Source: a virus
Reading direction: 5' to 3' (one strand)
Virus record (IMG/VR): IMGVR_UViG_3300031521_000082
Location: 1 to 56,272 of that record
Length of the DNA stretch: 56,272 nucleotides
The position numbers and the translations under genes are program-made. Under the pieces are notes generated by a model that worked only from the letters and a program-made list of their open reading frames with translations, searched no databases and was not told the DNA's origin. Of this stretch, positions 1,969 to 49,600 are shown piece after piece. Positions within the stretch are counted from its first letter, which is position 1. The number at the start of each line of letters is the position of its first letter.

Positions 1969-3792
1969 ATGGATTATACCCACGTCCTACCCCAAACCAT
2001 TGGTACGAATTATGGCACAACCGGTGATGGCGTCATCCTTGGAACTGTTTTCCCACATGTTTTGAGCGGTTCCGCCTACTACACGTATGCCCACGAAATT
2101 ACATATGCCATTCAGCGCGATGAGTGGACAACTCCACCAACAGTGAGCTGGGTGCCGATCCAAGCTCAATTAAATGCTTCCACAGCGGTTCAAATGTTCA
2201 CCTGCTTGGCTACTCCTCCTTCCGGAACGACTGATCCCACCCCAATTCCACAAATGTACTATGCTGTGCGTGACGGTGTTACTGGATTCACGTTTAATGT
2301 GACCACTGCATTGGTTGGAAGTGTTATTTTTAAAGCTGAATATTATACCTCTGCAGGCTGGGCAATCCTCACAACGGCTGTGTTTTCGAATAACTTTATG
2401 ACTGCGACTGGTTTAAGTACTATCACGTTTACCCCTCCATCTAACTGGATTACAAGTACGATTGGATACGCAACACCGCCTGAAAAATGGTTGAGGTTAA
2501 GTTTTGTAGGCACCCCAACAATCACAACCCCTGTTACAGTAACTGGAGGTTGGGAAACAACAACAGCGCTGGCTCCTTCAATTGGGGGTACAACAAACGT
2601 TCCTTTCTATAACCCATATAAGAATTTACTACCTGCAACCGGAGACACATTATATTTAGGATCAACGGATCAACCCTACGGATTTGTAATTACATATCAA
2701 ACCCCGCTCAGCAGTGGAAACGTCACATATAATTATATGAAAGCGAACGGTACGGTTGCAACGTTAACACCAATTTCTGATACTTCAAATGGTTTCACCG
2801 CGTCCAACAACCAATCATATCGGAAAAATACTTTAACTTCGACAGGGACAACTGCAAGCATAGCAGGTGATAGTGCAATTTCAGCGAATGGGTATGCAAC
2901 AGGAACTATAACAAACGTTCCTACTTCTTCCTTGTATGCGGTTACACTTGGGCTTTCAGCAGCAAAAACGGGCACCATGACGTATGCCATTCGCGCGTAT
3001 TGGAATGGAACGGCAGCGGCGTACCAAATTCTTCACAACGGAACAGCAGTATTTACTTCAACACGTTCAGTCGCAGCGAATGACAAATTAACAGTGATGA
3101 AATACAACGATAATATTTACTTTATGGTGAACGATATAAATATTGATCCTTCGTTATCAATGCCTGACACGAACGCACTATTATATGGAGTTGTACAAAC
3201 TCCAACAACTGGAACGATTGTCGAAAATTATAATCTTGTGGACTGGAGCGGAAGGAAAGCCGTACCAGTATTGTTAGCATTTACGACTCCAACAAATTTC
3301 ACTACTTTTGCAACTCAGACAACTGGACTTTTCCCTTGCAATTATTACATCCAGTTCTTGCCACCAACTGATTTTGCATCTGTACCGGCTTCCTTAAGTC
3401 CACTTGCAGTTAACGGTTATGTCATCGGAATTGTTTCACACCCACCTGCAGGCGTTTCAACTCCAGTTCAGTTAATGGATCAAAAAATGCTAACGGTCGG
3501 AGGAGCTGGCAACATATTCTTCCCAACAGGTAGCCAAACGATTGCTGACTTGATGAATATAAAAATTCAAAACGTTGCAAGCTACAGCGGTTCTGCTCAG
3601 TTTCTGTTATTGTTCGAGACCAGTGCTGGCAATACCACGCGTACCGTTACCTACGGATCATTAGCTACCGGGTCAAACATTTTGTCTAGCACGTTCCCGA
3701 ACTCTGGAATGACAGGAATTATTATTGTTCAAGTTGCTGGGGACGCCTCCTGGAACGTTGGGTCACCCGCCTACATTACACTTTCAACTTAG
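1969..3792 (+). CDS. Putative tail fibre or tail-associated structural protein
   Basis: A 607-residue protein rich in Thr, Ser, Gly, Val and Ala, with alternating hydrophobic residues suggesting an almost all-beta fold. No charged coiled coil and no signal peptide are visible. It follows the endolysin, carries the late motif and an AAGG ribosome site, and is followed after 10 bases by the S74 fibre gene, so a distal tail or receptor-binding part is likely. Residues about 310-400 look like a compact beta-sandwich of the carbohydrate-binding kind, but I cannot name a family. Being shared in one operon with the fibre suggests the two assemble together. Function is inferred from composition and place only. 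Confidence 0.6.
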   Translation: MDYTHVLPQTIGTNYGTTGDGVILGTVFPHVLSGSAYYTYAHEITYAIQRDEWTTPPTVSWVPIQAQLNASTAVQMFTCLATPPSGTTDPTPIPQMYYAVRDGVTGFTFNVTTALVGSVIFKAEYYTSAGWAILTTAVFSNNFMTATGLSTITFTPPSNWITSTIGYATPPEKWLRLSFVGTPTITTPVTVTGGWETTTALAPSIGGTTNVPFYNPYKNLLPATGDTLYLGSTDQPYGFVITYQTPLSSGNVTYNYMKANGTVATLTPISDTSNGFTASNNQSYRKNTLTSTGTTASIAGDSAISANGYATGTITNVPTSSLYAVTLGLSAAKTGTMTYAIRAYWNGTAAAYQILHNGTAVFTSTRSVAANDKLTVMKYNDNIYFMVNDINIDPSLSMPDTNALLYGVVQTPTTGTIVENYNLVDWSGRKAVPVLLAFTTPTNFTTFATQTTGLFPCNYYIQFLPPTDFASVPASLSPLAVNGYVIGIVSHPPAGVSTPVQLMDQKMLTVGGAGNIFFPTGSQTIADLMNIKIQNVASYSGSAQFLLLFETSAGNTTRTVTYGSLATGSNILSSTFPNSGMTGIIIVQVAGDASWNVGSPAYITLST

Positions 3793-7470: not shown

Positions 7471-9264
7471 ATGATTAAAAAATATTTATACGGGCGTGAC
7501 GCCAGCATAGCCATGTTAAAAGGCATCCACACCCTTTTCCGTTCAGTCTCATCAACGTTCGGCCCATTGGGATCAGTCGTGTATTTGCCTGACGAAAGGG
7601 GCTATTTACACCCAACAAAAGACGGTGTGACAGTCGCTAAATCAATTGGTATTGCTGACCAATTCGAAGAGGTTGGGGCGCAATCTGTAAAAGAGGTCGC
7701 GCTTAAAACCGTTGATCGAGTGGGGGACGGAACAACTTCATCAGTTATATTCATCTATTCATTTTTGCTATCCTGTTTTGGAGTGAATTTGAACGAATTA
7801 AAAGACATTAACGATTGGGAGGAGATCGAAGCAATCTTGCGCGCTTCAACGGAAAAGCTTACCAAATCTGAAATTAAAGAGATTGAGGAGTGGAAAACAT
7901 TTCTAATTAAATACTTAAAAGATTTAACTGTTGATGTAAAAGACGACCTGGAAGTTCTAGTAAAAATCGCGCGCACATCTGCTAACGGGGATGAGAAAAT
8001 TGTCAATTTAATCCGGGATTCACTTGAAAAAATTGGCACGGACGCAAACTTTATTATCGAAAACTCTAATAATATTGAGTCTTCCATCGAAGCGACCGAA
8101 GGGGTATACCTACCCGTGGGCATGACTTCGCCATTCTACTCAACAGTACCGGGGAAAATCCTCTGTGAATTAGAGAACCCTTACGTTATTTTAACTGATT
8201 CAGAAATTGTGGGATGGACGGAAATAAAAGACATAGTTTTAGCAATTCTTAATGATCCCAAAGAGAAAAATCTTAAACAAAATGAGAAATACCGCCCACG
8301 TCCATTTGTTTTAATTTGTAAAGATATCTCCTTTGTTGCTGAAGGGGGGATGGTAACAAACATTAAAAAGTCCGGAGAATACTTCCGCACATGCTGTATT
8401 TCGTTGAAATCGTTAACAAAAGGATCGCACTATTCTGATTCGGATTTATTCGAGGATCTTAGTCAAGTATTTGGTGGACGTTTAATTTCAAAGAACCAAG
8501 GGTTAGAGCTTGGGCCACTAGCAGGGAAAAACTCTGCAAAAATACATGACCTTGGATCATGCGAACGCATAGTTGTGTCGAAAAACAAAACTATCATCTT
8601 CCCTAATCAAGAGAGAAAAGAAGTTTTGGTGAACTACGTTAACAAAATCAAAGACATCGAATCTAAATCTAATACAGTTGAAGAAAAGCGATACCATGCC
8701 AGCAGATGGAAACGAATTTCATCCGGAGTGGCGATAATTACCCTTGGCGCACCCAATCAACAGTCAGCGGTGGAAATGAGAGACCGCCTCGACGATGCGA
8801 TTTGCGCGGTTCAATCCGCAAGAGAAAACGGTGCATTGCCTGGGGCATGTTCCGTCTATGGAAAATTGGCAGACTTATCTTTAATTCATACAATGGTTGA
8901 AGACGTTAATTTAAGTGCAAAACTTTCAGGTATTTTATGTAATTCATTCATGCAAATGATCCGTTGTTTGTTCCATGGTCACAAATTTAATGATGAAAGC
9001 CCGTGGAGCAGTTTCAATCGCGAATTATCCTACAAGGAATGGCTTGGCCCCAATTTAGCGACCGGCAAAGAAACAGTAAACGTTTGGGAAGAAGGCATTA
9101 TCGATTCGGCTGATTCAATAGTTGAAACAATTTCTAACGGTTTAGATTTAGCAGCGCTTTTGCTTAGAACAGAAACGTTAATAGTTCCGGACTGGGAGGA
9201 AATGTTACGTTTGAAAAATTTAATGTCAGTTGGAAACCCGAACGGGCAACAACAACAAGGATAA
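7471..9264 (+). CDS. groEL: Phage-encoded GroEL-type chaperonin
   Basis: A 597-residue group I chaperonin, longer than the usual 540-550. The equatorial domain shows G-P-L-G-S-V at residues 31-36, T-K-D-G-V-T-V-A-K at 49-57 and the catalytic D-G-T-T at 86-89. The apical domain (about 210-400) contains A-E-G-G-M-V. The C-terminal part has G-A-P-N-Q-Q-S-A-V-E-M followed by L-D-D-A-I, where the Asp of GroEL D398 is kept. The usual Gly-Gly-Met tail is replaced by G-N-P-N-G-Q-Q-Q-Q-G. It would fold proteins in an ATP-driven cytoplasmic cage, most plausibly the phage capsid. No groES lies beside it, but two GroES-like genes occur at 45769 and 46310. Phage GroELs are known in some giant phages. Confidence 0.93.
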   Translation: MIKKYLYGRDASIAMLKGIHTLFRSVSSTFGPLGSVVYLPDERGYLHPTKDGVTVAKSIGIADQFEEVGAQSVKEVALKTVDRVGDGTTSSVIFIYSFLLSCFGVNLNELKDINDWEEIEAILRASTEKLTKSEIKEIEEWKTFLIKYLKDLTVDVKDDLEVLVKIARTSANGDEKIVNLIRDSLEKIGTDANFIIENSNNIESSIEATEGVYLPVGMTSPFYSTVPGKILCELENPYVILTDSEIVGWTEIKDIVLAILNDPKEKNLKQNEKYRPRPFVLICKDISFVAEGGMVTNIKKSGEYFRTCCISLKSLTKGSHYSDSDLFEDLSQVFGGRLISKNQGLELGPLAGKNSAKIHDLGSCERIVVSKNKTIIFPNQERKEVLVNYVNKIKDIESKSNTVEEKRYHASRWKRISSGVAIITLGAPNQQSAVEMRDRLDDAICAVQSARENGALPGACSVYGKLADLSLIHTMVEDVNLSAKLSGILCNSFMQMIRCLFHGHKFNDESPWSSFNRELSYKEWLGPNLATGKETVNVWEEGIIDSADSIVETISNGLDLAALLLRTETLIVPDWEEMLRLKNLMSVGNPNGQQQQG

Positions 9265-12635: not shown

Positions 12636-13322
12636 ATGTTGAATAAAAAACAATTACAAGCTGATTTTCTAAACACTTTCCCACGTGGTGATGGTGGATA
12701 CTTAAGGATTCCATCTGGCAAACCTTGGGCAAAAGAAATAAATAAACTTAATTTTATTGTATCGCAGCAATATATATATTTTAATCAACGGTGGGAAAAG
12801 TTAATTAAATTATTTGAAGAATTTCTAGCTTCAATGGAATCAGAAGATAACCAGGGAGAAATAGGCGAAGCAGAACGTTACTGTATCATGTGGTGCAAAA
12901 AAATGATTGATATTTTCAAATTTGGGCTTGAACTTCAGCCTGAAATTGATGCAATGATTATTAATAAAAATATTTCCCCTGAAGCAGGTATTCGGAATGC
13001 GGTTAAACCCGATAACTTAAACGATAATTTGATTAGTGAATCTAAAATTATACATGGATATAAATTACTTTATGAAGCAGTAAAAATTTTTACTCGTATG
13101 GTGCATAGAGCGCAATGGGATTTAGATTACTTACAATTTTTGAAAGATGAGAAAACAGTTGTAGAAAATGATTCTAACGTGAAAAATCATCCTAAATATA
13201 CTGAATTTTTACTATCAAAAGATAAAGATAGAGGCTTAGCAGAAAATTTGGATGAATATAATGAACTAATTTTAGAATGGGGAGTTGTCTACAATTCCAA
13301 TAAAGAGGCAAGTAATGACTGA
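12636..13322 (+). CDS. Array protein 1, helical paralogue family
   Basis: A 228-residue helical protein, first of the operon running to 19759. It carries the array signature twice in outline: P-W-A-K-E-I-N-K near residue 30 matches the W-x-x-E-V-N start of other members, and residues about 82-105 (E-R-Y-C-I-M-W-C-K-K-M-I-D) match the core [LI]-x-x-W-C-x-x-[ML]-[IV]. The C-terminal half (130-228) is an additional helical region. There are no membrane segments or metal motifs. It overlaps the next gene by 8 bases. No similarity to a named family is recognised; cytoplasmic location is inferred from the lack of export signals. Confidence 0.7.
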   Translation: MLNKKQLQADFLNTFPRGDGGYLRIPSGKPWAKEINKLNFIVSQQYIYFNQRWEKLIKLFEEFLASMESEDNQGEIGEAERYCIMWCKKMIDIFKFGLELQPEIDAMIINKNISPEAGIRNAVKPDNLNDNLISESKIIHGYKLLYEAVKIFTRMVHRAQWDLDYLQFLKDEKTVVENDSNVKNHPKYTEFLLSKDKDRGLAENLDEYNELILEWGVVYNSNKEASND

Positions 13323-14052
13323 AGAAAAAGATTTGGTAAAAGAATTCGAAAAAAATAAACATTTAGCGCTCCAGCTTTTGGCTGAAATCGGCGCATGTAA
13401 AATAACCCCACTATCTTGCATTCCATTACAAGACTTTGAAAAATTCAAAAAACTTATTTTTTTACAGGTTTGGCTTAAGGAGAATAGGGATAAATACATA
13501 CCCTTACATAATCATTCGGGATTCGAAGCGGGACGATTTTCAATTCACCTTATACACTTAGACAAGTGGATTGATGAAATGGTAAAAAGTGTTGTGATCT
13601 TAGAAAATCCGCACACTATTAATACGCATATTAAGGAAGAAACAGTGACAGAAGAGAACGATGCAGAACCATCTGAAAACAAAAGTCTACTTTTAAGAGA
13701 ATCATTTTGGTGTAGAGAATTTAACAAAACAATCCTTAGCATTAGAAAGAAAATAGAAGACAAAAATTCTAAGTTTTACGAAGAACGTTACCAAATAAAA
13801 AATGATTTATTGACTTATGCTACCTCTAGTTGTTGGTCAGCTTTTAGATCTGATGTAGAAGGTAAATTATTGATTCACTGGTGCGAAAATACTTTGATTG
13901 TACTTGAGTTAGCTCATTTTTTTCCGGAATCTTTTGACCAATGTTTAAAATGCGTAACATATAATAAAAACTTTCAAAAACAAAGCGGTGTGGGTCACGC
14001 GGCGGAAGCTCAATACGCGTTTACAATGTTAATGGATTTAGATGGGAAATAA
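13315..14052 (+). CDS. Array protein 2, two-domain paralogue
   Basis: A 245-residue protein. I choose the ATG at 13315 because an AGAGG ribosome site lies 8 bases upstream and because array members typically begin MT-D/E; the longer frame from 13285 has no such site. The N-terminal half (about 1-105) and C-terminal half (about 130-245) look like two diverged copies of the array fold, joined by an acidic linker (E-E-T-V-T-E-E-N-D-A-E). The second copy has L-L-I-H-W-C-E-N-T-L-I-V-L-E-L, the canonical core. It overlaps array gene 1 and is followed after 2 bases by array gene 3. Confidence 0.7.
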   Translation: MTEEKDLVKEFEKNKHLALQLLAEIGACKITPLSCIPLQDFEKFKKLIFLQVWLKENRDKYIPLHNHSGFEAGRFSIHLIHLDKWIDEMVKSVVILENPHTINTHIKEETVTEENDAEPSENKSLLLRESFWCREFNKTILSIRKKIEDKNSKFYEERYQIKNDLLTYATSSCWSAFRSDVEGKLLIHWCENTLIVLELAHFFPESFDQCLKCVTYNKNFQKQSGVGHAAEAQYAFTMLMDLDGK

Positions 14053-14054
14053 AA

Positions 14055-14360
14055 ATGACTGATTGGCAACACAGAGTAAATACTATTTGGGATATTTTGG
14101 CGAATCCCGATCAACCCCCAATTAATTGGGAAGAACTGAATAAGACAATTCAAGTGTTAGAAAATGATTTAAAAGAAAATAACTTCGATGATTTACCTTC
14201 TAATCGAAAACCCTTTTTAGCTTTGTTTTGCGGGCACTTAATCCCTTTAACTACACTGATGATAAATGGAAACGGGTTGATTAAAAACGAGAGTGAATTA
14301 GAAGTTATACAAGAATTGTATAACAAAGCAAACGTGGCGTATGCGATGTTAAAATGTTGA
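14055..14360 (+). CDS. Array protein 3
   Basis: A 101-residue single-domain member beginning M-T-D-W-Q-H-R-V-N, then N-N-F-D-D-L-P, then a core where Trp is replaced by Phe (F-L-A-L-F-C-G-H-L-I). The Phe-Cys variant and the C-terminal helix are closest to array protein 16 (19409). All predicted structure is helical. It starts 2 bases after the previous stop, so the genes are translated as a coupled set. Confidence 0.65.
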   Translation: MTDWQHRVNTIWDILANPDQPPINWEELNKTIQVLENDLKENNFDDLPSNRKPFLALFCGHLIPLTTLMINGNGLIKNESELEVIQELYNKANVAYAMLKC

Positions 14361-14396
14361 AAAGTATTAAAAATATTAGTTTTGTGGGAGCCCTGA

Positions 14397-14633
14397 ATGA
14401 CTGATTGGAAATTGCAACTCGATGAAATATTAAAACTCATGGGTAATCTTAATGCAAATAGGAGTGAGGTTAAAGAGATAGTGGAGAAACTTCAACAGTT
14501 TTCAAAAAATTTAGAAGAGGGTAAATATACAAACCTTACTAAAGATGAAGTAAGAGGATTAAACGAATGGTGTAAAACCTTTGCACAATATTTACAGAGA
14601 GCAATTGCTCTTGGAGACATAAAGTATAATTAA
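14397..14633 (+). CDS. Array protein 4, short form
   Basis: At 78 residues, this is the shortest clear member: M-T-D-W-K-L-Q-L-D-E-I-L at the start, G-K-Y-T-N-L-T-K-D-E in the middle and the core L-N-E-W-C-K-T-F at about residues 58-65. It stops soon after the core helix, so the last helix of longer members is missing. It may be a minimal or truncated unit. A GGAGCC ribosome site lies upstream. Confidence 0.65.
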   Translation: MTDWKLQLDEILKLMGNLNANRSEVKEIVEKLQQFSKNLEEGKYTNLTKDEVRGLNEWCKTFAQYLQRAIALGDIKYN

Positions 14634-14652
14634 ACAATAAGGAATAGGTAAG

Positions 14653-14991
14653 ATGAATGAAAAAGAAATTTTGGACAGGATGGAAGTTGTTTATCAATAT
14701 ATGCTCGACAATGCCGGGGAACCTTATTACTACGATGATTTAAAAAAAATGGTTTTAACGATTAACCAAGATTTAATCGACGAAAAAATTGTAGGCTTAA
14801 CTCGTTTTCAAAAAATACATTTATTGAATTGGATTTGTAATTTGGTCAACGCGTGCGAATTTGCTTTAGTAATTTACGAAGATCCTAAAATGCATGATGA
14901 AAGGCGGGTAATGCTTGATGAAATGATAGACGATCTTTTGGAGCAATCGCGTAAGAATTTTAACTTGCTTAAGAACGCTAGGGAAAAATGA
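14653..14991 (+). CDS. Array protein 5
   Basis: A 112-residue member, clearly paralogous to array protein 6: both have E-V-Y or V-V-Y then P-Y-Y-Y-D-D, a variable G-L segment, K-I-H-L-x-N-W and V-N-A-C-E, and end in K-N-F-N-L. Here the core is H-L-L-N-W-I-C-N-L-V-N-A-C-E. A double AAGGA/AGG ribosome site precedes the ATG. It overlaps array gene 6 by 4 bases (ATGA). Confidence 0.68.
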   Translation: MNEKEILDRMEVVYQYMLDNAGEPYYYDDLKKMVLTINQDLIDEKIVGLTRFQKIHLLNWICNLVNACEFALVIYEDPKMHDERRVMLDEMIDDLLEQSRKNFNLLKNAREK

Positions 14992-15368
14992 TTAATCAAA
15001 AAGAACTACCACCAAAGATTAAACAAGTTTTAAAGCCAAAAATTGTTGAGCGGATGTTAGAAGTATATGCATTAATGAAAAAGGATTACAACCACCCTTA
15101 TTATTATGATGATATAAAAAGTAAAGCTCTATCAATTGTCATCGACCTTCGTAAAGGAAAATTTGAGGGGTTATCAGACACCCTAAAAATACATTTAAAT
15201 AATTGGGTTTACCAAATAGTTAATGCTTGTGAGGTGGCTATTTTGATTCGGGAAGAGACATTTGACGCGGAAGAACTTTTAAAGATTAAACAAAATATGC
15301 TTGATCTGCTGCAGGAATCACATAAAAACTTTAACCTCATCAAGAACGAAGAGGAACAAAATGACTGA
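14988..15368 (+). CDS. Array protein 6
   Basis: A 126-residue paralogue of array protein 5. R-M-L-E-V-Y near residue 20, P-Y-Y-Y-D-D-I-K at about 38-45, then D-L-R-K-G-K-F-E-G-L-S and the core H-L-N-N-W-V-Y-Q-I-V-N-A-C-E. The same pattern, with R-L-E-D-V-Y and K-W-C-Q-L-M-N-L-C-C-D, is found in array proteins 13 and 14, which links the sub-families. It is acidic and helical, and is followed by an 8-base overlap with gene 7. Confidence 0.68.
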   Translation: MINQKELPPKIKQVLKPKIVERMLEVYALMKKDYNHPYYYDDIKSKALSIVIDLRKGKFEGLSDTLKIHLNNWVYQIVNACEVAILIREETFDAEELLKIKQNMLDLLQESHKNFNLIKNEEEQND

Positions 15369-15888
15369 TAAAATTGACCTCAAAACATGTAATCGTTACC
15401 TAGGGGAATCCCCTTACAAACATGACATTTCTTTAGTAATAGAAAATACACTGTTGGTGTCAGTTAATAGTATTTTAAAAACTCAATATCAAAACATTAT
15501 TTCAAACGTTGAAGATTTTGATAGAGAGATTTTATCACCGATTGACGAACATGCGAGGCCCATGGCATGGTTGCTGTATGGGTATGGGAATAAGAAACCA
15601 GAAAAACGACTTCTTTTTACCCAATTTTTCAATCATACAGTAAAACTTCTAAGGGAAGGTTGGATACTTGGAAAAGAAATCGGTCATACCATTGATGAAA
15701 ACAATATTCCATGGGAGAGAATTCGCAAAATAAAAGGGTTATCTGACATGGGATATAACCTTGCCAAAGGTATTAAAACCATGGAAGAAAAATATTCTTT
15801 TGAAAAAAACATTTTTCCTCCGGTCGATCCTGAATTATTCAAATGGATAAATCAACTCACGCAGCCAGGATATGATCCACTACCCTAA
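15361..15888 (+). CDS. Array protein 7
   Basis: A 175-residue protein. The ATG at 15361 is preferred over the upstream frame start at 15301 because GAGGAAC lies just upstream and the product then begins MTDKIDL like its neighbours. It is helical, with R-L-L-F-T-Q-F-F-N-H-T-V-K-L-L at about residues 80-94 resembling a diverged core without the Trp-Cys pair, followed by G-K-E-I as in array protein 8. Membership is likely but weaker than for others. It ends 36 bases before gene 8. Confidence 0.6.
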   Translation: MTDKIDLKTCNRYLGESPYKHDISLVIENTLLVSVNSILKTQYQNIISNVEDFDREILSPIDEHARPMAWLLYGYGNKKPEKRLLFTQFFNHTVKLLREGWILGKEIGHTIDENNIPWERIRKIKGLSDMGYNLAKGIKTMEEKYSFEKNIFPPVDPELFKWINQLTQPGYDPLP

Positions 15889-15924
15889 TTAATAAACAGT
15901 AAATACAATTAAAGAAAGTGATCA

Positions 15925-16365
15925 ATGAAACAAAATAAAGATTTTTGGAACGGCTATATTTCAAATATGCTGAAAGAACAATTTAGTTTTTGGGATGGGA
16001 AACACGAATGGATTATGAAACTCGATAACATTTTACATTTATTTCACGCAAAAATTATTCAAAATTCTAGAAATTTCAACAAATATGCAGCCCCTCTTTA
16101 CGAGTTAAAAGAGGAAGCAGAAAGTAAACTTAACGGTGATTCAAGCTTCAAGAGTAATGAAAGACTATTAATTCAATGGTGTAACCATATGATCAATGTC
16201 TTAAGTATGGGTGAAAAAATTGCTTTAAAACTTGGGAAAAAAATTAGGTATGGTTTAATAGATTACAACGATGGTATTTGGGATCTCGAACAAGAAATTG
16301 CATTCGCAAATCAATATATTTGGATGATGAGAATTGATAAGCGAAACGAAGATGTAAAGGATTAA
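15925..16365 (+). CDS. Array protein 8
   Basis: A 146-residue member: H-E-W-I-M-K-L-D-N-I-L near residue 25 corresponds to the W-x-x-E-V-N helix, and residues about 79-97 give the canonical core R-L-L-I-Q-W-C-N-H-M-I-N-V-L. It is closest in the core to array protein 1. The C-terminal helix carries W-D-L-E-Q-E-I. It starts after a spacer with AAAGAAAGTG as ribosome site and ends 2 bases before gene 9. Confidence 0.66.
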   Translation: MKQNKDFWNGYISNMLKEQFSFWDGKHEWIMKLDNILHLFHAKIIQNSRNFNKYAAPLYELKEEAESKLNGDSSFKSNERLLIQWCNHMINVLSMGEKIALKLGKKIRYGLIDYNDGIWDLEQEIAFANQYIWMMRIDKRNEDVKD

Positions 16366-16367
16366 AA

Positions 16368-16829
16368 ATGGAAAGTAATAAAAACCCTAAAAGGATGATG
16401 GACTTGCCACCATATAAATTATTTCCCAATACGGAGTGGAGGCATGAAGTAAACGAGATTATTAAATTTCTGAACGAAAATTTTAATCTTACTTCTCAAA
16501 ATATTACATTTCTAATAGAGTCAATAGATCGTTTACTTGATAAAGTAATAACATTAAAATATAACGATTTGCACCCCAAAGAAGGTGGACTATTACTTGC
16601 ATGGGGTATCGCTTTAAAAACTTTTTTACGTGTAGTTAACCACCCAGTGTATCGGTTCTTAAACATTAAATGGAATAGTAAATTTTTTACTATGAGAGAG
16701 ACTTATCATAAGGCTGTTGCATATTCATTATGGCTGCTAGCGCGCACGACCGCTATAGGATTATGTGAGAACGCAAAGTTTAGAAAGAAAGAAACCGATA
16801 AACCAAAAGAAGATGTGATGGAAGCATGA
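16368..16829 (+). CDS. Array protein 9
   Basis: A 153-residue member beginning with an extra N-terminal 15 residues, then F-P-N-T-E-W-R-H-E-V-N-E-I-I, which is the same opening as array proteins 11-13 (T-G-W-R-K-D-L-N, I-G-W-R-H-E-V-N). The core is G-L-L-L-A-W-G-I-A-L, where Cys is replaced by Gly. It ends in a lysine-rich tail. An ATGA-type junction with the minigene at 16830 follows. Confidence 0.66.
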   Translation: MESNKNPKRMMDLPPYKLFPNTEWRHEVNEIIKFLNENFNLTSQNITFLIESIDRLLDKVITLKYNDLHPKEGGLLLAWGIALKTFLRVVNHPVYRFLNIKWNSKFFTMRETYHKAVAYSLWLLARTTAIGLCENAKFRKKETDKPKEDVMEA

Positions 16830-16874
16830 ATGACCGATTTATGTAAAAGACTTAAAAAAAGGGAGGGTAAATAA
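16830..16874 (+). CDS. 14-codon minigene, possible array remnant
   Basis: ATG encodes MTDLCKRLKKREGK and stops in a TAATG junction with gene 10. The MTD start matches array genes 3, 4 and 7, and the AGGGAGGG at its end is the ribosome site of the next gene. It may be a remnant of a deleted array member that was kept for translational coupling, or a chance frame. Confidence 0.35.
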   Translation: MTDLCKRLKKREGK

Positions 16875-17269
16875 TGGATAACTTATATATTTATAAAAAA
16901 ATTGATGAATTAATACGTAATTCAAACAAAATATTGGATGTGGATGTGTTTGACTGTATGTGTCCTCTATCCCTATCATATATTGGGATTAACCTTTTAG
17001 ATGGGAGTGGGTTCAAAACTATATTTGAAGAAGTGAAAGATAAGCTTAATGCCAGAATCGAGGTCAAGTATGCTCCTAAAACTAAATATGACGTTCAGGA
17101 AGGCGCATACAGATTTATGGCGGGACATTCTACATGTGAACACACACCTTTTAACGCATTGAAAAAATATGCGTACGAAAAGGGTAAGGATTACTCACAA
17201 ATTTTAAGAGCAGGTTCAATATTAGTACGAGACTATTACCTGGAAAAACACTCAGAGATTAAGGAATAA
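16874..17269 (+). CDS. Array-operon protein 10, not obviously in the family
   Basis: A 131-residue protein with the strongest ribosome site of the operon (GGGAGGG). It lacks the Trp-Cys core and is different in style: a Cys-containing N-terminal half (D-C-M-C-P-L) and a C-terminal helical half with A-G-H-S-T-C-E-H-T-P. The Cys/His residues could bind a metal, but spacing does not match a finger I know. It is probably an unrelated protein carried within the array. Confidence 0.6.
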   Translation: MDNLYIYKKIDELIRNSNKILDVDVFDCMCPLSLSYIGINLLDGSGFKTIFEEVKDKLNARIEVKYAPKTKYDVQEGAYRFMAGHSTCEHTPFNALKKYAYEKGKDYSQILRAGSILVRDYYLEKHSEIKE

Positions 17270-17271
17270 CT

Positions 17272-17646
17272 ATGAAAAAAGAACTACACGAGGCTGACTA
17301 TACTTTTATTTTCTCACCCAATACAGGTTGGAGGAAAGATCTAAATTTATTATTAAAAGATTGGCTTTGTTCATCAAATGCTGAACTGAATGAGAAAGTG
17401 AATGAGTTTTTAAACAAGATTAAAAATAAAGAATTTGGGAAAGAATCAATCGAATGTCCTTATGACATTTTAACAGAATGGTCTGAAAACTCATTAATTT
17501 GTATAAAGCATTTAGCCCAGAGAAGGATAACTGGTCAACCAAATATTAGTATTTTGGAAGAAGTTGCAAAGGCACACGTGAGTGCAAGTGAAGCTTTTCT
17601 ACGGCTCCAAGAATGTTACAAACCAGAAATTAAATATTTTGCGTAA
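17272..17646 (+). CDS. Array protein 11
   Basis: A 124-residue member nearly alignable end to end with array protein 12: N-T-G-W-R-K-D-L-N, F-L-N-K-I-K-N-K-E, P-Y-D-I-L-T-E-W then E-N-S-L-I. The two genes remain similar at DNA level as well (for example gattaaaaataaagaat in both), so the duplication is fairly recent. It starts 2 bases after gene 10. Confidence 0.7.
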   Translation: MKKELHEADYTFIFSPNTGWRKDLNLLLKDWLCSSNAELNEKVNEFLNKIKNKEFGKESIECPYDILTEWSENSLICIKHLAQRRITGQPNISILEEVAKAHVSASEAFLRLQECYKPEIKYFA

Positions 17647-17653
17647 TATAACA

Positions 17654-18046
17654 ATGAAATATAAAGGAATAACCATTGACAAGGAACTATTTCGGATCGA
17701 TTATATTTTTCAATTCACACAAAATACGGGGTGGAGAAAAGATCTGAATGCATTATTAAAAGAATGGGTTAACGTATCCAACGCTGAATTGTTTGAGAAA
17801 GTGACGGGGTTTTTAAACAAGATTAAAAATAAAGAATATAAGAACGAACCTACCGAATTCCCATATGACATTTTAACAGAATGGGCTGAAAATTCCTTGA
17901 TATGGTTAAAGCATTTAGTCGAGAGAGATAAAACTGGTGAACCCAATATTAATGGTTTGGAAGAATTTGTAAACGCATCAAGCCGGGCAGGAAATGCATT
18001 TCGATACCTGCAAGAATTTTATGAAATAGAAAAGTTATATATTTGA
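17654..18046 (+). CDS. Array protein 12
   Basis: A 130-residue sister of array protein 11. I place the start at 17654 rather than 17582: the longer frame would overlap gene 11 by 65 bases, and the product from 17654 begins M-K-Y-K-G-I-T-I-D-K-E-L in line with its sister. The core is D-I-L-T-E-W-A-E-N-S-L-I-W-L-K-H. The start codon of gene 13 follows the stop codon directly. Confidence 0.68.
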   Translation: MKYKGITIDKELFRIDYIFQFTQNTGWRKDLNALLKEWVNVSNAELFEKVTGFLNKIKNKEYKNEPTEFPYDILTEWAENSLIWLKHLVERDKTGEPNINGLEEFVNASSRAGNAFRYLQEFYEIEKLYI

Positions 18047-18793
18047 ATGGAACCAATGATTAAACAATTTGAACCTTTATTGCCAGATATCGGTTGGCGC
18101 CATGAAGTAAATAACATAAGAATTCTTTACAAGAATAGTAATGATTATGATTTTTTCCTTTCAAAGGTTCATAAACTTATGCTCGATGTTAAACACCATA
18201 GGATTAAAAAGCTTTCAAACTATGAAAGAACTAATTTAAAGGAATGGGGGGAAAACTGGATGCGTATCTGGACTTTCCTTAAAAATAACGATTACATGAC
18301 CACACATCCTGACATTTATAGGTTAGATTATTGGCAATACTGTGCAAATATGGCTTGTACGAACTTGTTAAATTTAAATCCTAAAAAGCCACATCATATT
18401 GTGCAACGTTTAGAAGATGTTTATACCTATTGGCATGCCCCGAAAGTAACAGCGTGGTCATTTGAAAGGGTAAAAAATAAAATTTTAAGAGTTCAGATTG
18501 ACAGAGGCAATGGCGTTATTCCACGCCTTTCTCCCAAGCAGAAATCCTTCTTAGTAAAATGGTGTCAATTGATGAATCTTTGTTGTGACATGGGAATTCA
18601 ATTATGTTTCATAATCAAGGAAGAAAAATATTGTTTTGAAGATATACTTAAATTAGGAATTAAAAGTCGAACTGTTTCGTCTGTAAAATGTGAGATACGT
18701 GAAAGAATAGAAGCTAATTATCACAAGTCACTCGATGTGCTTACAGAATTAAAAGAGTTGGATTCTAATCAAGATATTGTCCCGACGTCATAA
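18047..18793 (+). CDS. Array protein 13, fusion of two array domains
   Basis: A 248-residue two-domain protein. Domain 1 (about 1-115) starts I-G-W-R-H-E-V-N-N-I and has the core N-L-K-E-W-G-E-N-W-M. Domain 2 (about 118-245) starts I-V-Q-R-L-E-D-V-Y-T-Y-W-H and has the core F-L-V-K-W-C-Q-L-M-N-L-C-C-D-M-G. Domain 2 is a close duplicate of the single-domain gene 14. Domain fusion inside the array shows that the fold works in tandem. Confidence 0.72.
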   Translation: MEPMIKQFEPLLPDIGWRHEVNNIRILYKNSNDYDFFLSKVHKLMLDVKHHRIKKLSNYERTNLKEWGENWMRIWTFLKNNDYMTTHPDIYRLDYWQYCANMACTNLLNLNPKKPHHIVQRLEDVYTYWHAPKVTAWSFERVKNKILRVQIDRGNGVIPRLSPKQKSFLVKWCQLMNLCCDMGIQLCFIIKEEKYCFEDILKLGIKSRTVSSVKCEIRERIEANYHKSLDVLTELKELDSNQDIVPTS

Positions 18794-18813
18794 ATATTAA
18801 TTGAGGAATAGTT

Positions 18814-19218
18814 GTGAATACAGATAATATTATACAACGTTTAGAAGAAATATATAAGTATTGGCATGAACCAAAGGTAACAAGTTGGGCATTTGGAAGG
18901 GTAAAGAGTGAAATTTTAAATTTTCAGGTTGATTTAGGCAATGGCGTTATTACCCCACTATCTAGCGACCCTGATAGGTTATTATTTAAATGGATTCAAG
19001 TTATGAAACTTTGCTGTGACTTAGGCATGGGATTATGTAAAACAATTAATGAAGATAAAATTCATTTTGATCAAAAAATTAAATTGGGAATTAAATGTCA
19101 ATTTTTATTTACTATTAAACGTGAGTTTCGGGCAAAAATAGAAGCTAATTTTCAAAAGACATTGGAATTGTTTAAGGAATTAAAAGAGTTGGATGCAATA
19201 AATAAGGAGAAAACATAA
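18814..19218 (+). CDS. Array protein 14
   Basis: A 134-residue protein starting with GTG behind a TTGAGGAATA ribosome site. Nearly the whole protein aligns with domain 2 of array protein 13: R-L-E-E-I-Y-K-Y-W-H-E-P-K-V-T, G-N-G-V-I, L-G-I-K and E-A-N-F-Q-K-T-L. At DNA level acaacgtttagaaga is shared exactly. This is the youngest duplication in the array. Its stop overlaps gene 15 (TAATG). Confidence 0.7.
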   Translation: MNTDNIIQRLEEIYKYWHEPKVTSWAFGRVKSEILNFQVDLGNGVITPLSSDPDRLLFKWIQVMKLCCDLGMGLCKTINEDKIHFDQKIKLGIKCQFLFTIKREFRAKIEANFQKTLELFKELKELDAINKEKT

Positions 19219-19409
19219 TGCAACCAGTAACCACAAAAATGACACACAAACTCACTATCCGTTCGATTAAAGATGATATGGACTCTGAAGCGGCGGATGC
19301 CCTAGCTAAGGCTATGATTAGGGCTCTAAATGAGGGAGCTGCCAATGCTTTGAGTGCTGAAAATAAAGATTCAAACAGTGAAATAAACGACAAAGAAATG
19401 GAATTGTAA
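19218..19409 (+). CDS. Small acidic protein within the array operon
   Basis: A 63-residue protein rich in Ala, Asp and Glu, beginning M-Q-P-V-T-T-K-M-T-H-K-L and ending in a charged tail. It has no Trp-Cys core and does not belong to the family. It is coupled on both sides (TAATG junctions with genes 14 and 16). Size and acidity would fit a small regulatory or mimic protein, but no function can be read. Confidence 0.5.
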   Translation: MQPVTTKMTHKLTIRSIKDDMDSEAADALAKAMIRALNEGAANALSAENKDSNSEINDKEMEL

Positions 19410-19759
19410 TGATGACTGAAGACTGGGTAAAAGAAATAAGCTACCTATATCTTAGATGGGTAGAAACTTCGTTGGGTACATTACCTTTAAATAATTCCTC
19501 AACCGAAAAAATAAGCGCATTAAATGAGATTAGTGATAAATTGCAAAAATTATCTGATGCTTATCCAGAGGGTAAGACTTTAAAGCCAGAGATTGCACCC
19601 TTTTTTTCTTTGTTTTGCCACGACCTGAAAAGGCTCATTTCTCTACAAAAAAAAATGATAACTCCTGAGGGCGAAGAGTACTCCTCGATGCTGTTTAATT
19701 GCTTTTTAAAGAATGTGGTTGCGCATTACAATTTGTTAATGACTGAAGGGTTGAAATGA
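19409..19759 (+). CDS. Array protein 16, last member
   Basis: A 116-residue member starting M-M-T-E-D-W-V-K-E-I; the second ATG (19412) may be the true start, matching the MT-x-D/E-W style. The core has Phe in place of Trp (F-F-S-L-F-C-H-D-L), as in array protein 3, followed by a helix ending N-L-L-M-T-E-G. It closes the operon; a weak A/T-rich hairpin and then the terminator at 20146 follow. Confidence 0.62.
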   Translation: MMTEDWVKEISYLYLRWVETSLGTLPLNNSSTEKISALNEISDKLQKLSDAYPEGKTLKPEIAPFFSLFCHDLKRLISLQKKMITPEGEEYSSMLFNCFLKNVVAHYNLLMTEGLK

Positions 19760-20145
19760 TCTTGTAGTCAAATAGTATTAACTACCGCCAAAAGAGATTT
19801 GTGGAACAAAAGATTAAGGTATGATATGATATGTATGGAGACGTACTAGAAAAAAGAACTTTCTTTTTTAACAAAACCAGTCAATTTCCATTCTTTCGTG
19901 ATCTTTTTTTAGGCGTGATCAGACCCAAAATCCCATCTTTTTTTACCCGTTAAATCCCTTTAAATCACGCAGGAATTACCCTTCTTGCATAGCCATGTGG
20001 CTTAGTTTCACCCAGTGTTTCCGCGGCTGGTTAGCGTTTAAATGCATCTATGTTGATAGTTGATTAATTAAAATATTGGTGTTAATGTGTTGGTGATTCT
20101 ACATTTTTGAAAGCATTCAAGTGGAGTCTTTATTATTTTATACTC

Positions 20146-20184
20146 AAAGGGCTTGTGTTGTTACTATCGCAGCCCTTTATTATT
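20146..20184 (+). terminator. Rho-independent terminator
   Basis: AAAGGGCT and AGCCCTTT (8 bp, perfect) flank 17 bases, followed by ATTATT. It is the first convincing stop signal after the array operon, nearly 390 bases downstream of its last gene. Confidence 0.65.
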
Positions 20185-20373
20185 CCCCATCGTCTATCAA
20201 TCATTCTTTTATAAACACTTATGCTTCAAATACTGGGGTATTTTCTGGTGGGATACTTATTTTATAAGCCATCGATTCAATACTATATTTACTGATGCAT
20301 TCTTTATTCCATCGACTGATGAACAAACAGTCACACATGAAAACCAATTAACTATGGTGCCATGAAAACTATG

Positions 20374-20431
20374 CCCCGGGGGTATGAAGAAGTAGGGGGT
20401 GGGGGGTCGTATCGTAAATACCCCCCTCGAG
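20374..20431. other. G-rich hairpin
   Basis: Two G tracts of five and one of six lie within about 30 bases, and the last can pair with ATACCCCCC at 20418-20426. The segment stands out sharply in an AT-rich spacer. It could form a strong hairpin or, less surely, a G-quadruplex. Confidence 0.5.
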
Positions 20432-20543
20432 TGCATTAATAATATATGGAATTTTAGCAATTAATCTTGCAGCAATTTTTGAGCAATGTTATAAAACTTT
20501 ATCGGGGCAATAAGACATCACACTAAAGCTCTTTTATACTTCT

Positions 20544-20580
20544 AGAACTAGGCATTGATATTCCCCTAGTTCTTTTTTTT
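20544..20580 (+). terminator. Rho-independent terminator upstream of the ATPase gene
   Basis: AGAACTAGG and CCTAGTTCT (9 bp, perfect) with a 12-base-class loop are followed by eight T. It insulates the ATPase gene at 20598 from upstream transcription and may end a short RNA that starts near 20500. Confidence 0.85.
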
Positions 20581-20597
20581 AACTTACTGGATCTGAT

Positions 20598-21425
20598 ATG
20601 ATTATACGAATTACTTTAGATAACTTCCTAAGCTTTAATGATGAGCAATCTTTATATCTTCTTCCTACTGAATCGTACCAAGAATTAGAATCCATACCAT
20701 ATTGTAAATCAAACGATTTTCATATTCTTTCCCAAGCTTTGATTATGGGTGCAAACGGTTCTGGTAAATCTAACCTCTACAAAGCGTTACAGTTTTTGAA
20801 ACAATTTGTGAAGTTTAGAAACGGTACACTTATGAAGTCTTTACCACAAGTTTATTGCAAAATATCCGATGAGAACATGCTCAAAACAACTGTTTTAGAA
20901 TTTGCATTCTTAATAAATGAAGATATCTACGAATATAAAATATCTAAACTACAAAACTGTGTTTATCAAGAAGGTTTATATGTTAACGGTGAATTTGTAA
21001 GTGGAGATGCATTTTTTATCCTATTTGATTGGATTGAAAATAACCTGCATCTCTATGATCAACAATACTTTGATTCGTTACCAGTCCCTGATCTTTCCAC
21101 TCCTAACTTAGTGAAAATAGATGAGATTAAAAATATTTTATTTTCAAAAACCAAACCTACTATGAACAGTGTCATTTACATTGACAATTTTGACGATGGT
21201 ATAGATCATGCAACATCTTGTGAAATCGTATCGGACTACGTTAAAAACGTAACCAGTGATTCTAGGAACCAATTAATTGTTAATTCACATGCGAACCCTT
21301 TGATGGATAATGCTTTAATCGACCGCGATGAGATTTTTGTTTTAGAAGTAAACTCTAAGCACGAGTCCAAAATTATTGGTGTTGGTAATTACAGGTTACC
21401 AGCTAGAACGAAAAAAAGAGGTTGA
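20598..21425 (+). CDS. AAA_15/AAA_21-like ATP-binding protein, moron candidate
   Basis: A 275-residue ABC/SMC-like ATPase with a typical opening (I-I-R-I-T-L-D-N-F-L-S-F), Walker A G-A-N-G-S-G-K-S at residues 51-58, a Walker B-like strand V-I-Y-I-D-N (192-197) followed by F-D-D-G-I-D-H, and a switch-like His231 (N-S-H-A-N). Most family members are 350-450 residues and have Asp-Glu at the end of Walker B; here the Glu is Asn and the protein is short. Related ATPases act in abortive infection and in Septu/Gabija-like and retron defence, usually with a nuclease or toxin; none is adjacent. It stands alone behind a terminator and ahead of a tRNA-like element, the usual place for a lysogenic-conversion gene. 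Defence function is inference. Confidence 0.75.
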   Translation: MIIRITLDNFLSFNDEQSLYLLPTESYQELESIPYCKSNDFHILSQALIMGANGSGKSNLYKALQFLKQFVKFRNGTLMKSLPQVYCKISDENMLKTTVLEFAFLINEDIYEYKISKLQNCVYQEGLYVNGEFVSGDAFFILFDWIENNLHLYDQQYFDSLPVPDLSTPNLVKIDEIKNILFSKTKPTMNSVIYIDNFDDGIDHATSCEIVSDYVKNVTSDSRNQLIVNSHANPLMDNALIDRDEIFVLEVNSKHESKIIGVGNYRLPARTKKRG

Positions 21426-21871: not shown

Positions 21872-23593
21872 TTGAGTGAGAATCTATTTAAGTTAAACAG
21901 AGAAATTAAGCGTGTAAAATCGACCTACAATGGTATCGAAAAACTATTAAATGGTGCAATCGATCCAATTGTTCAAGAGTTGAAAGAAATGTACCGCGAA
22001 GACATGGGCTTGTTCTGTGAAGATTTCTGGCCGCTTGCTGGTACCACAACTGCATTGATCAAAGGTTATGCCTGGGACGGTCGCGTACAGCATTTCGATG
22101 CACTTCTTAAACGACAGATAAAGTTTCTTCTTTGGACTGAACCTCCTAAGGAGGGAAAGTCGACTTTCTTTAACGTACTTGCACCAGTTTATAGTTGGGT
22201 GCGTGATCCCACGGAAAAAATCCTTTCAACATGTTACGCGCCGCGTTGGGCTTATCGCGACAATCGGTATATGCAACAGCTGATTATGAGTGAAGAATTC
22301 CAGTATATATTCGGATCCGACTTTCACCTTATCCGTAAATCGAGGGATGAAACTACTAACAATAGAATGGGGCAACGTGTTGCTTCCCATGTGGACGGGC
22401 AAATAACCTCATCGGGTGGTACTATCCTATTATTTGATGATCCCAATTCAATCTCTGATAAACGAAGTCCCGACCAAATGCAAAAGCCTGCTGACCTCTG
22501 GGATTCTACGTTTATTCACCGTATGATAAACCCTGCGCGAACGGTTTTCTTTATTGGGCAACATAGGGTGGGAGCTAACGATCTGTATGGTCACGTTGAA
22601 CGAATTAATTACCCTGGCATGGTGTGTGTGCACATGCCGTTTTCGTATGTCTCTAGTAAAAAATGTGTAACGTATCTACCAGGTAGTAATAAAATTTTCT
22701 GGCAGGATCCTAGGACTGAAGAAGGGGAGTACATCAACCCAATTCGGCATACACCTAAAGACCATGAGGACGTGAAGCGTACGATGTTGGATGCAGATTA
22801 TGCTGCGCTGTATCAATGTGAACCATACCCAACCGTTGGAGGAATCTTCCGGCGTGAATGGTTTAAGGTTTGGAACTCTCCACGATTACCCGATTTTGAA
22901 TTTATCGTATCAAGTTGGGATACAGCAATCTCCACGGCTTCGAACGCTTCGTATTCCGCGTGTACCATTTATGGAGTGTTCAAAAACGACAAAGGCATGC
23001 ACAGTGTAATGTTCTTAAACTCGTGGCATGGAAGGTTAGAGTGGACTGAACTACGGAAGATGGCAGTTCGCCTTGGTAAAAATATTTTCGACTCGGATTA
23101 CGACAGACCGCACGGCGGATCATACGAGAGTGATTTTATTGTGGTGGAAGCCAAAGCGAATGGGCCATGTCTGGCTGACGAACTTCGGTTAGCGGGTTTA
23201 AATGCTATTAATTATAATCCACCTAAAACGGGTTCTAAACAATACGGTAAATCTGAGTCAGGTAAAATCATTCGAGCTCGTTTAAGAAGCGCATTCGTTG
23301 AAGCGGGGAGAGTTTATGTGAAAGGGAGATTCCCCTATGAAGGACAATTGGATTTCGTTGCAGAGAAATTCATTGAGATTTGTTTGATGTTCCCGAATGG
23401 CCCCACTGAAAGCCGGGATATTATGGATACATTTTCCATGGCACTTGATTTCCTATCGAAGAGGAAGATGTTACTAACCAAAGAGGAAGAGCATGTGATT
23501 TCCGGTCAACACCAGATGATTGAGCTTTCAAAATCGTTTAGGGCAAACGATGCGTCTAATCAGATGATACAGGATATCCCTACGTATATGTAA
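21872..23593 (+). CDS. terL: Large terminase subunit (DNA-packaging ATPase/nuclease)
   Basis: A 573-residue packaging motor. The ATPase domain has a Walker A-like E-P-P-K-E-G-K-S at residues 90-97 and a Walker B I-L-L-F-D-D at 185-190. The nuclease domain begins with the acidic motif S-S-W-D-T-A (Asp349), with F-I-V-V-E-A-K-A-N-G as the second metal-binding segment. Length fits the family. It starts with TTG, supported by a GAAGG ribosome site eight bases upstream. It stands alone: no small terminase was recognised next to it; the HTH protein at 45474 is one candidate. It is convergent with the Rep-like gene, only 5 bases apart. Confidence 0.93.
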   Translation: MSENLFKLNREIKRVKSTYNGIEKLLNGAIDPIVQELKEMYREDMGLFCEDFWPLAGTTTALIKGYAWDGRVQHFDALLKRQIKFLLWTEPPKEGKSTFFNVLAPVYSWVRDPTEKILSTCYAPRWAYRDNRYMQQLIMSEEFQYIFGSDFHLIRKSRDETTNNRMGQRVASHVDGQITSSGGTILLFDDPNSISDKRSPDQMQKPADLWDSTFIHRMINPARTVFFIGQHRVGANDLYGHVERINYPGMVCVHMPFSYVSSKKCVTYLPGSNKIFWQDPRTEEGEYINPIRHTPKDHEDVKRTMLDADYAALYQCEPYPTVGGIFRREWFKVWNSPRLPDFEFIVSSWDTAISTASNASYSACTIYGVFKNDKGMHSVMFLNSWHGRLEWTELRKMAVRLGKNIFDSDYDRPHGGSYESDFIVVEAKANGPCLADELRLAGLNAINYNPPKTGSKQYGKSESGKIIRARLRSAFVEAGRVYVKGRFPYEGQLDFVAEKFIEICLMFPNGPTESRDIMDTFSMALDFLSKRKMLLTKEEEHVISGQHQMIELSKSFRANDASNQMIQDIPTYM

Positions 23594-25932: not shown

Positions 25933-26361
25933 ATGAAAGAAGGAGGCGCACGTCCTAATTTAGCTATGTTGAACATGATTAATGCTCAAAATAAGTTCAA
26001 TACTGCTAATTTATCTTTTATGGCTAATATCAACACAATCGAAGATATAAAATACGCATATAAAATGTGCTTTAATCTGATTTCCAGAAAGAAAATCACC
26101 CCTCATTTGCTCAAAGAACTTTTGGAATGTTTGGCTATGTATGCAAAACTCATTCGAGAAATGACTATTGTGGATATTTCGTCTAAATTAATAGACTTAG
26201 AATCGGATGCAAAGAAAATATGCCAAATCCATTCGTTACCACAAACAATTAGAGAAGAGAAAATACAAGAAGATAAGACTGTTGACACTGATTTTTACGC
26301 CAGTGCTATGCGAAGAATCAAAAAAAATAATTTTATTGAGCATTCTGACTACGAAGATTAA
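25933..26361 (+). CDS. Hypothetical helical protein
   Basis: A 142-residue mostly helical protein 15 bases after the preceding gene, with a GGGAGAAATTG ribosome region. It has leucine- and lysine-rich helices and an acidic C-terminus (H-S-D-Y-E-D). No family recognised. It is probably co-transcribed with 25411 and translated in early infection. Confidence 0.58.
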   Translation: MKEGGARPNLAMLNMINAQNKFNTANLSFMANINTIEDIKYAYKMCFNLISRKKITPHLLKELLECLAMYAKLIREMTIVDISSKLIDLESDAKKICQIHSLPQTIREEKIQEDKTVDTDFYASAMRRIKKNNFIEHSDYED

Positions 26362-27548: not shown

Positions 27549-27623
27549 GTCCCCTTCTTCTAGAGGTTAGGATGCTACCCTTTCACGGTGGCGACACGGG
27601 TTCGAATCCCGTAGGGGATACCA
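27549..27623 (+). tRNA. tRNA-Glu (UUC)
   Basis: A full cloverleaf of 75 bases with encoded CCA. Acceptor GTCCCCT pairs with AGGGGAT; the anticodon stem CTACC/GGTGG holds the loop CTTTCAC with anticodon TTC; the T-arm is ACGGGTTCGAATCCCGT. It is close to gammaproteobacterial tRNA-Glu. It may serve translation in an AT-rich host or be an integration-site copy. Confidence 0.92.
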
Positions 27624-49484: not shown

Positions 49485-49600
49485 ATGGGGTAACTCCTTT
49501 TTACTATCTCTATTAATTAAATTTATACCCCAATATATTTCATCGGTCAACGCATTTTTTAAACATGGTCATTTTAGGAAAAAATCAGTAAAATATTATG

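Follow-up and report, generated by a model that had tools for sequence, protein, structure and literature searches.

An operon of thirteen divergent paralogous genes with a predicted four-helix unit in a 56-kb phage genome

The IMG/VR virus record IMGVR_UViG_3300031521_000082, analysed here over its full 56,272 bases (the window), carries an array of 16 co-directional open reading frames (ORFs), m1-m16, all on the + strand, which fill positions 12636-19759 and occupy about 13% (about one eighth) of the 56-kb genome. Judging from their sequences, thirteen of these genes (m1-m9 and m11-m14) belong to one paralogous family of 14 units, m13 being double, because their kinship is supported by leave-one-out profiles, by a controlled all-against-all comparison and by a test for a motif; m16 is a probable further member. 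An initial annotation of this DNA had proposed about thirteen tightly packed paralogues at this place. The thirteen family genes are supported, and the coordinates and same-strand packing were confirmed from the ORF list, but the interval holds sixteen ORFs, of which m10 and m15 fall outside the family. According to their coordinates the ORFs overlap or sit no more than 44 bases apart. Purine-rich stretches lie upstream of many of them, and promoter and terminator scans gave chance-level results only. For a 56-kb phage both the copy number and the operon arrangement look unusual to us.

The genes are listed below. Each sequence was scored against a family hidden Markov model (HMM) from which the tested gene was excluded, as was its close twin for m5/m6, m11/m12 and m13C/m14 (N and C denote the two units of m13), and the score was compared with those of 300 shuffles of the tested sequence. 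Fractions give the number of shuffles that scored as well; E(Z=1) values are from phmmer.

m1, 12636..13322, +: 228 aa; one unit at about 31-107, C-terminal half unrecognised; HMM 1/300; core RYCIMWCKKMIDIF; m1-m8 E(Z=1) 7e-6
m2, 13315..14052, +: 245 aa from the ATG at 13315, overlapping the end of m1; HMM 0/300; core KLLIHWCENTLI
m3, 14055..14360, +: 101 aa, single unit; HMM 31.5 bits, 0/300
m4, 14397..14633, +: 78 aa, shortened unit (helices 1-3); HMM 36.3 bits, 0/300
m5, 14653..14991, +: 112 aa, single unit; HMM without m5 and m6, 0/300
m6, 14988..15368, +: 126 aa, single unit; 0/300; m6-m13 E(Z=1) 1.7e-9
m7, 15361..15888, +: 175 aa, divergent unit; 0/300; m7-m8 E(Z=1) 2.9e-6
m8, 15925..16365, +: 146 aa, unit plus an extra N-terminal helix; 0/300
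m9, 16368..16829, +: 153 aa, single unit; 0/300
m10, 16874..17269, +: 131 aa, operon gene outside the family; 190/300; unlinked in the all-against-all comparison
m11, 17272..17646, +: 124 aa, single unit; HMM without m11 and m12, 1/300
m12, 17654..18046, +: 130 aa, single unit; HMM without m11 and m12, 0/300
m13, 18047..18793, +: 248 aa, two units in one chain
m14, 18814..19218, +: 134 aa, GTG start, single unit, twin of the m13 C unit; HMM without both, 0/300
m15, 19218..19409, +: 63 aa, operon gene outside the family; 70/300
m16, 19409..19759, +: 116 aa, probable divergent member; 13/300; m4-m16 E(Z=1) 3.9e-4

In the leave-one-out test, m1-m9, m11, m12, m13N and m14 all beat at least 299 of 300 shuffles, and m16 was marginal. 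Six other window proteins used as controls were matched by 55-290 of their 300 shuffles, and ten small proteins from two sister phages, described below, gave nothing convincing (7-184 of 300 shuffles as good). The all-against-all phmmer comparison, with a cut-off of E(Z=1)<1e-3, returned matches for 21 of the 120 pairs within the array, against 9 of the 1888 pairs joining an array protein to a small non-array protein from the three phages. Single linkage of these matches unites 14 of the 16 genes; m10 and m15, left out here and matched by 190 and 70 of their shuffles, were rejected as members. The motif [LC]xxW[CGISAV] was found in 12 of the 16 genes of the array, compared with 19 of 191 proteins outside it. 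Shuffling the array sequences brought the count down to 1.7 on average, with 6 as the highest value; because the motif was derived from the array itself, this is the weakest of the three kinship tests. All three cores quoted in the initial annotation are present, RLLIQWCNHMI in m8, that given above for m2, and FLVKWCQLMN in m13.

Three pairs are close (m11/m12, 61% identity; m13C/m14, 52%; m5/m6, 44%; pairwise comparison), and beyond them the array proteins are joined by a web of weak similarities. The N unit of m13 resembles m9, m11 and m12, and its C unit resembles m14, m5 and m6. Aligned directly, the two large sub-families did not match each other (hhalign 0.5%); a profile of m3 and m4, against which m16 reached 43%, bridges both (88.8% and 87.2%). 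A third sub-group consists of m1, m2, m7 and m8. Among the double-domain forms that had been announced, m13 is clear and m2, with the family core in its C half, has a weak second core in its N half (12/300 for that half alone), whereas a second unit in the C half of m1 was dropped, 168 of 300 shuffles scoring as well. A shortened form does occur, m4 stopping after helix 3. Outside the array, weak matches in early profile iterations came from the conserved core gene located at 25933-26361 and from its orthologues; the gene failed the shuffle test (84/300).

AlphaFold2 predicts for m13 eight helices in two sets of four (17-30, 34-49, 58-80 and 90-108; 115-129, 133-151, 163-203 and 208-240), with a predicted local distance difference test score (pLDDT) of 65 and a predicted template modelling score (pTM) of 0.56, and this model alone spans both large sub-families. 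The m8 model (pLDDT 63, pTM 0.59) places helices at 28-47, 51-71, 77-103 and 121-140 after an extra N-terminal helix. Helix order is identical in the m13 N unit, the m13 C unit and m8, as seen in these two models, which suggests with moderate confidence a four-helix unit common to three sub-groups. The single helical fold proposed earlier is thus backed by three agreeing units, drawn from two models of pLDDT 63-65. In the models, helix 1 starts with WxxEVN, and helix 3 contains LxxWC and is preceded by a loop formed by GxxxxL. Foldseek found no match at E<=0.001 in PDB (m13) or BFVD (m13 and m8). VIA-align gave Z scores of up to 10.7, inside the range given for chance helical bundles, and in the structure-match lists shown for the four-helix models no chain of the Bcl-2 family is conspicuous.

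The array is at least partly under purifying selection and is changing fast. The ratio of nonsynonymous to synonymous substitution rates (dN/dS) is 0.77 (0.48-1.29) for m13C/m14, which retain 52% identity at a dS of 0.43, 0.49 (0.28-0.85) for m11/m12 and 0.30 (0.05-0.60) for m5/m6. In the sister phages, accessory paralogues lying in tandem gave 0.20-0.50.

No significant match was obtained for the members scanned against Pfam, PHROGs, NCBIfam, PADLOC, PDB sequences and BFVD; Pfam and PHROGs covered the array, and the NCBIfam and PADLOC scans took in part of its genes. The best library E-value was 0.0005, for PHROG 2306 over 30 residues of m13, all Pfam scores lay under the curated cut-offs, and PDB sequence profiles returned non-significant matches only. 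The collections searched were viral contigs and phage records, together with bacterial genomes queried with two structural proteins. Nothing useful came from tblastn with four members against 50,697 phage records or from a DNA search of phage records with the whole array, and two single-protein scans of viral contigs found no homologue. The array was absent from every library and collection searched, as expected of the undescribed family that had been suggested, and none of its genes convincingly matched a known family of its own. The protein family is new; lineage-specific arrays of viral paralogues are already known as a kind of locus.

From its gene content the window is evidently a phage, as the initial annotation had stated, with TerL, chaperonin, portal-like and capsid-like genes; a GH108 lysozyme and a resolvase are also encoded. 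Features outside the array are the following.

chaperonin, divergent GroEL, 7471-9264: PHROG 5725, E 6e-86
AbiLi-like AAA ATPase, neighbour outside the family, 20598..21425, +: PADLOC AbiLi 1.6e-33; Pfam AAA_21 2e-10
large terminase (TerL), 21872-23593: PHROG 38, E 4.6e-48
tyrosine integrase, 48312-49550

The phage is likely temperate, given its integrase. The only tRNA of the window, a tRNA-Glu with anticodon TTC (27549-27623), lies in this tyrosine-integrase phage, might bear some relation to an attachment site, and was the sole match of an Rfam scan of the window. Between the array and the AbiLi-like gene stretch 838 bases (19760-20597) without an assigned gene or Rfam match. The AbiLi-like ATPase has 275 aa against a profile of 326 positions, its match beginning at profile position 49, and is perhaps shortened or divergent. 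The right-end protein of the window and one left-end protein both match a single 764-aa sister-phage protein; therefore, the genome in the window may be permuted and lack a short piece. Its two ends form no in-frame junction. We infer an alphaproteobacterial host from sequence relatives, because phages of Roseobacter, Pelagibacter and Caulobacter are among the relatives of the capsid protein (24-27% identity) and because one sister phage has a second GroEL that shares 68% identity with an Azospirillum GroEL (among plasmid-borne genes). A scan of bacterial genomes for host or prophage with portal and capsid alignments gave no match.

Searches with TerL, portal and capsid proteins found two related records only, IMGVR_UViG_3300042876_000735 (G001, 59,936 bases) and IMGVR_UViG_3300021440_000005 (G002, 56,416 bases), and a search for relatives that used only the chaperonin as query found none. 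Identities to the window in G001 and G002, respectively, are 48% and 54% for the terminases, 58% and 57% for the portal-like proteins, and 57% and 60% for the capsid proteins. Virion genes, TerL and chaperonin match one to one across the three phages. In contrast, array members have no convincing homologue in either sister and lie outside the virion module that both retain, and therefore behave like accessory genes. Each sister holds its own tandem clusters of small paralogues, three genes at L005:813-2396 and two at L005:3403-4234 in G001, and two at L012:12836-13682, adjoining TerL, in G002. Accordingly, this phage group repeatedly amplifies lineage-specific small accessory paralogues in variable regions, the window being the extreme case. 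Kinship of the array with the sister-phage clusters was sought by HMM and hhalign and, after ten proteins had been tested, was not accepted, the results being weak hints only (L005:2927-3328, hhalign 21% against m3 and m4, 12/300; L007:15675-16058, 7/300).

Several other features of the sister phages were noted. Both encode Cas9-like proteins, of 1049 aa in G001 (L005:15589-18738, -) and 1039 aa in G002 (L011:12181-15300, +), recognised by HNH_4 (E 2.5e-14 and 1.4e-6, respectively) and, in G001, by weak RuvC_III and Cas9_a matches. The G001 gene adjoins TerL, and the window phage has no Cas9-like gene. Degenerate CRISPR-like repeats share records with these genes, at L005:8498-10761 in G001 (at least 22 diverged copies, several at 66-base spacing) and at L011:18322-18766 in G002 (7 copies, spacing 64-67). 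Two of the seven G002 spacers match its own genome (L011:18493-18522 and 18690-18719 against L010:15979-15999 and 3553-3573), one at 21/21 positions in the portal-like gene (42 bits) and the other at 20/21 in a different gene (34 bits), against a shuffled maximum of 28. On a record that also has a phage Cas9-like gene, such spacers might serve to regulate the phage's own late genes or aim at a target shared with rivals. The chaperone load is also unusual: a divergent GroEL is present in all three phages, G001 adds, at L005:4661-6612, a GroES-like ORF and a second, alphaproteobacterial-type GroEL, and G002 carries ORFs at L012:1-3131 that appear DnaK- and DnaJ-like by the look of their sequences alone.

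The paralogy shows that genes were duplicated and diverged within one transcription-sized unit; a role for their products can be proposed only tentatively. The reading that we favour, while holding it at slightly less than an even chance, is that one accessory four-helix gene was duplicated in tandem and diverged, and that the resulting proteins modulate host or defence proteins by binding them. One small gene coding for a four-helix unit would have been duplicated repeatedly in tandem and would then have diverged strongly, with one internal fusion giving m13 and one truncation giving m4. The products would be soluble helical bundles made together, each binding a different cellular protein, either a host regulator or a part of a resident defence, and a single transcription unit would thereby deliver a set of binders. 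This putative role is reached by elimination and analogy, because the genes lie outside the virion module, lack enzyme signatures and do not share a common charge, and because viral precedents exist for one fold serving many ends. The fast protein change in m13C/m14 and m11/m12 is in its favour. The binding of varying host targets suggested in the initial annotation is plausible. It is also plausible that the operon belongs to the accessory part of a phage that is likely temperate, since the next downstream gene matches AbiLi and an integrase is present. A bolder version, in which fourteen four-helix units of an undescribed superfamily would neutralise different host defence or regulatory proteins from one operon, as the phage equivalent of the Bcl-2-like repertoire of poxviruses, appears to us rather unlikely.

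Several points weigh against binding of diverse targets. Function or target is known for no member, and none matched a known counter-defence family in the library scans. Positive selection was not seen, dN/dS being below 1 by point estimate in a crude test of the three closest pairs. Nor do polar positions change more than hydrophobic ones in these pairs: identities at hydrophobic and polar columns are nearly equal (0.62/0.61, 0.55/0.50 and 0.48/0.42), contrary to the conserved core under a variable surface that had been expected. The net charges of the array proteins, scattered from -7 to +8, likewise give no indication of a common surface for mimicking or binding nucleic acids. Finally, confidence in the predicted structures is moderate, and since four-helix bundles are common, sharing one strengthens the sequence-based case modestly.

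Joint expression, favoured by the co-directional overlapping genes, would suit products that assemble into one hetero-oligomeric complex, such as a scaffold or a phage-made intracellular structure, with duplication reflecting subunit specialisation. The helical unit with its conserved LxxW core and the fusion in m13 of one unit from each of two sub-families fit such an assembly, but extreme divergence and the lack of sister-phage homologues argue against a conserved core machine, as does a copy number peculiar to the window phage, and we regard it as improbable. We give similarly little credence to an operon serving the lysogen in superinfection exclusion or host defence, each paralogue recognising a different invader component: the integrase and the AbiLi-like ATPase just downstream fit a prophage accessory region, yet no scanned array protein convincingly matches a PADLOC model, and 838 bases part the operon from the ATPase gene. 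Mostly neutral amplification, with copies generated by recombination, many of them now in decay and retaining little function, would account for a dN/dS that reaches 0.77 and whose interval takes in 1, for the shortened m4 and for the unrelated m10 and m15 inside the array. Nevertheless, all 16 frames are open across 7.1 kb though most copies are very old by divergence, and the dN/dS values of m5/m6 and m11/m12 have upper bounds below 1, which makes this last explanation very unlikely.

Should the members bind different cellular proteins, as in the favoured reading, the operon would provide a ready set of binders evolved by a phage on one shared scaffold, and a small bacterial virus would be using the one-fold-many-targets strategy known from large eukaryotic viruses. 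Regardless of function, an undescribed family filling this share of a genome went undetected by the family libraries used.

Within its own genome, the array differs from the virion structural module, whose genes match across three phages, and the AbiLi-like ATPase (PADLOC PDLC02335) encoded beside it is unrelated in sequence and a neighbour only. Among viral families elsewhere, the vaccinia Bcl-2-like proteins, such as A49, are paralogues with one fold and different functions (PMC4358236). The array resembles this poxvirus family in having one (here predicted) helical fold in several diverged copies per virus, and differs from it in that the poxvirus proteins come from a eukaryotic virus and have no sequence relation to the array, whose genes form one tight operon with a predicted four-helix unit. 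The Bcl-2 fold has more helices than four. Sulfolobales virus genomes can likewise hold several uncharacterised anti-CRISPR paralogues, with early genes clustered, and share with the array small clustered genes and several paralogues in one viral genome (PMC11065993). In contrast to those archaeal-virus proteins, the array belongs to a bacterial phage and gave no AcrID1- or AcrIIIB1-like match in the families scanned. To our knowledge, it also holds more copies in one operon than the Sulfolobales virus clusters.

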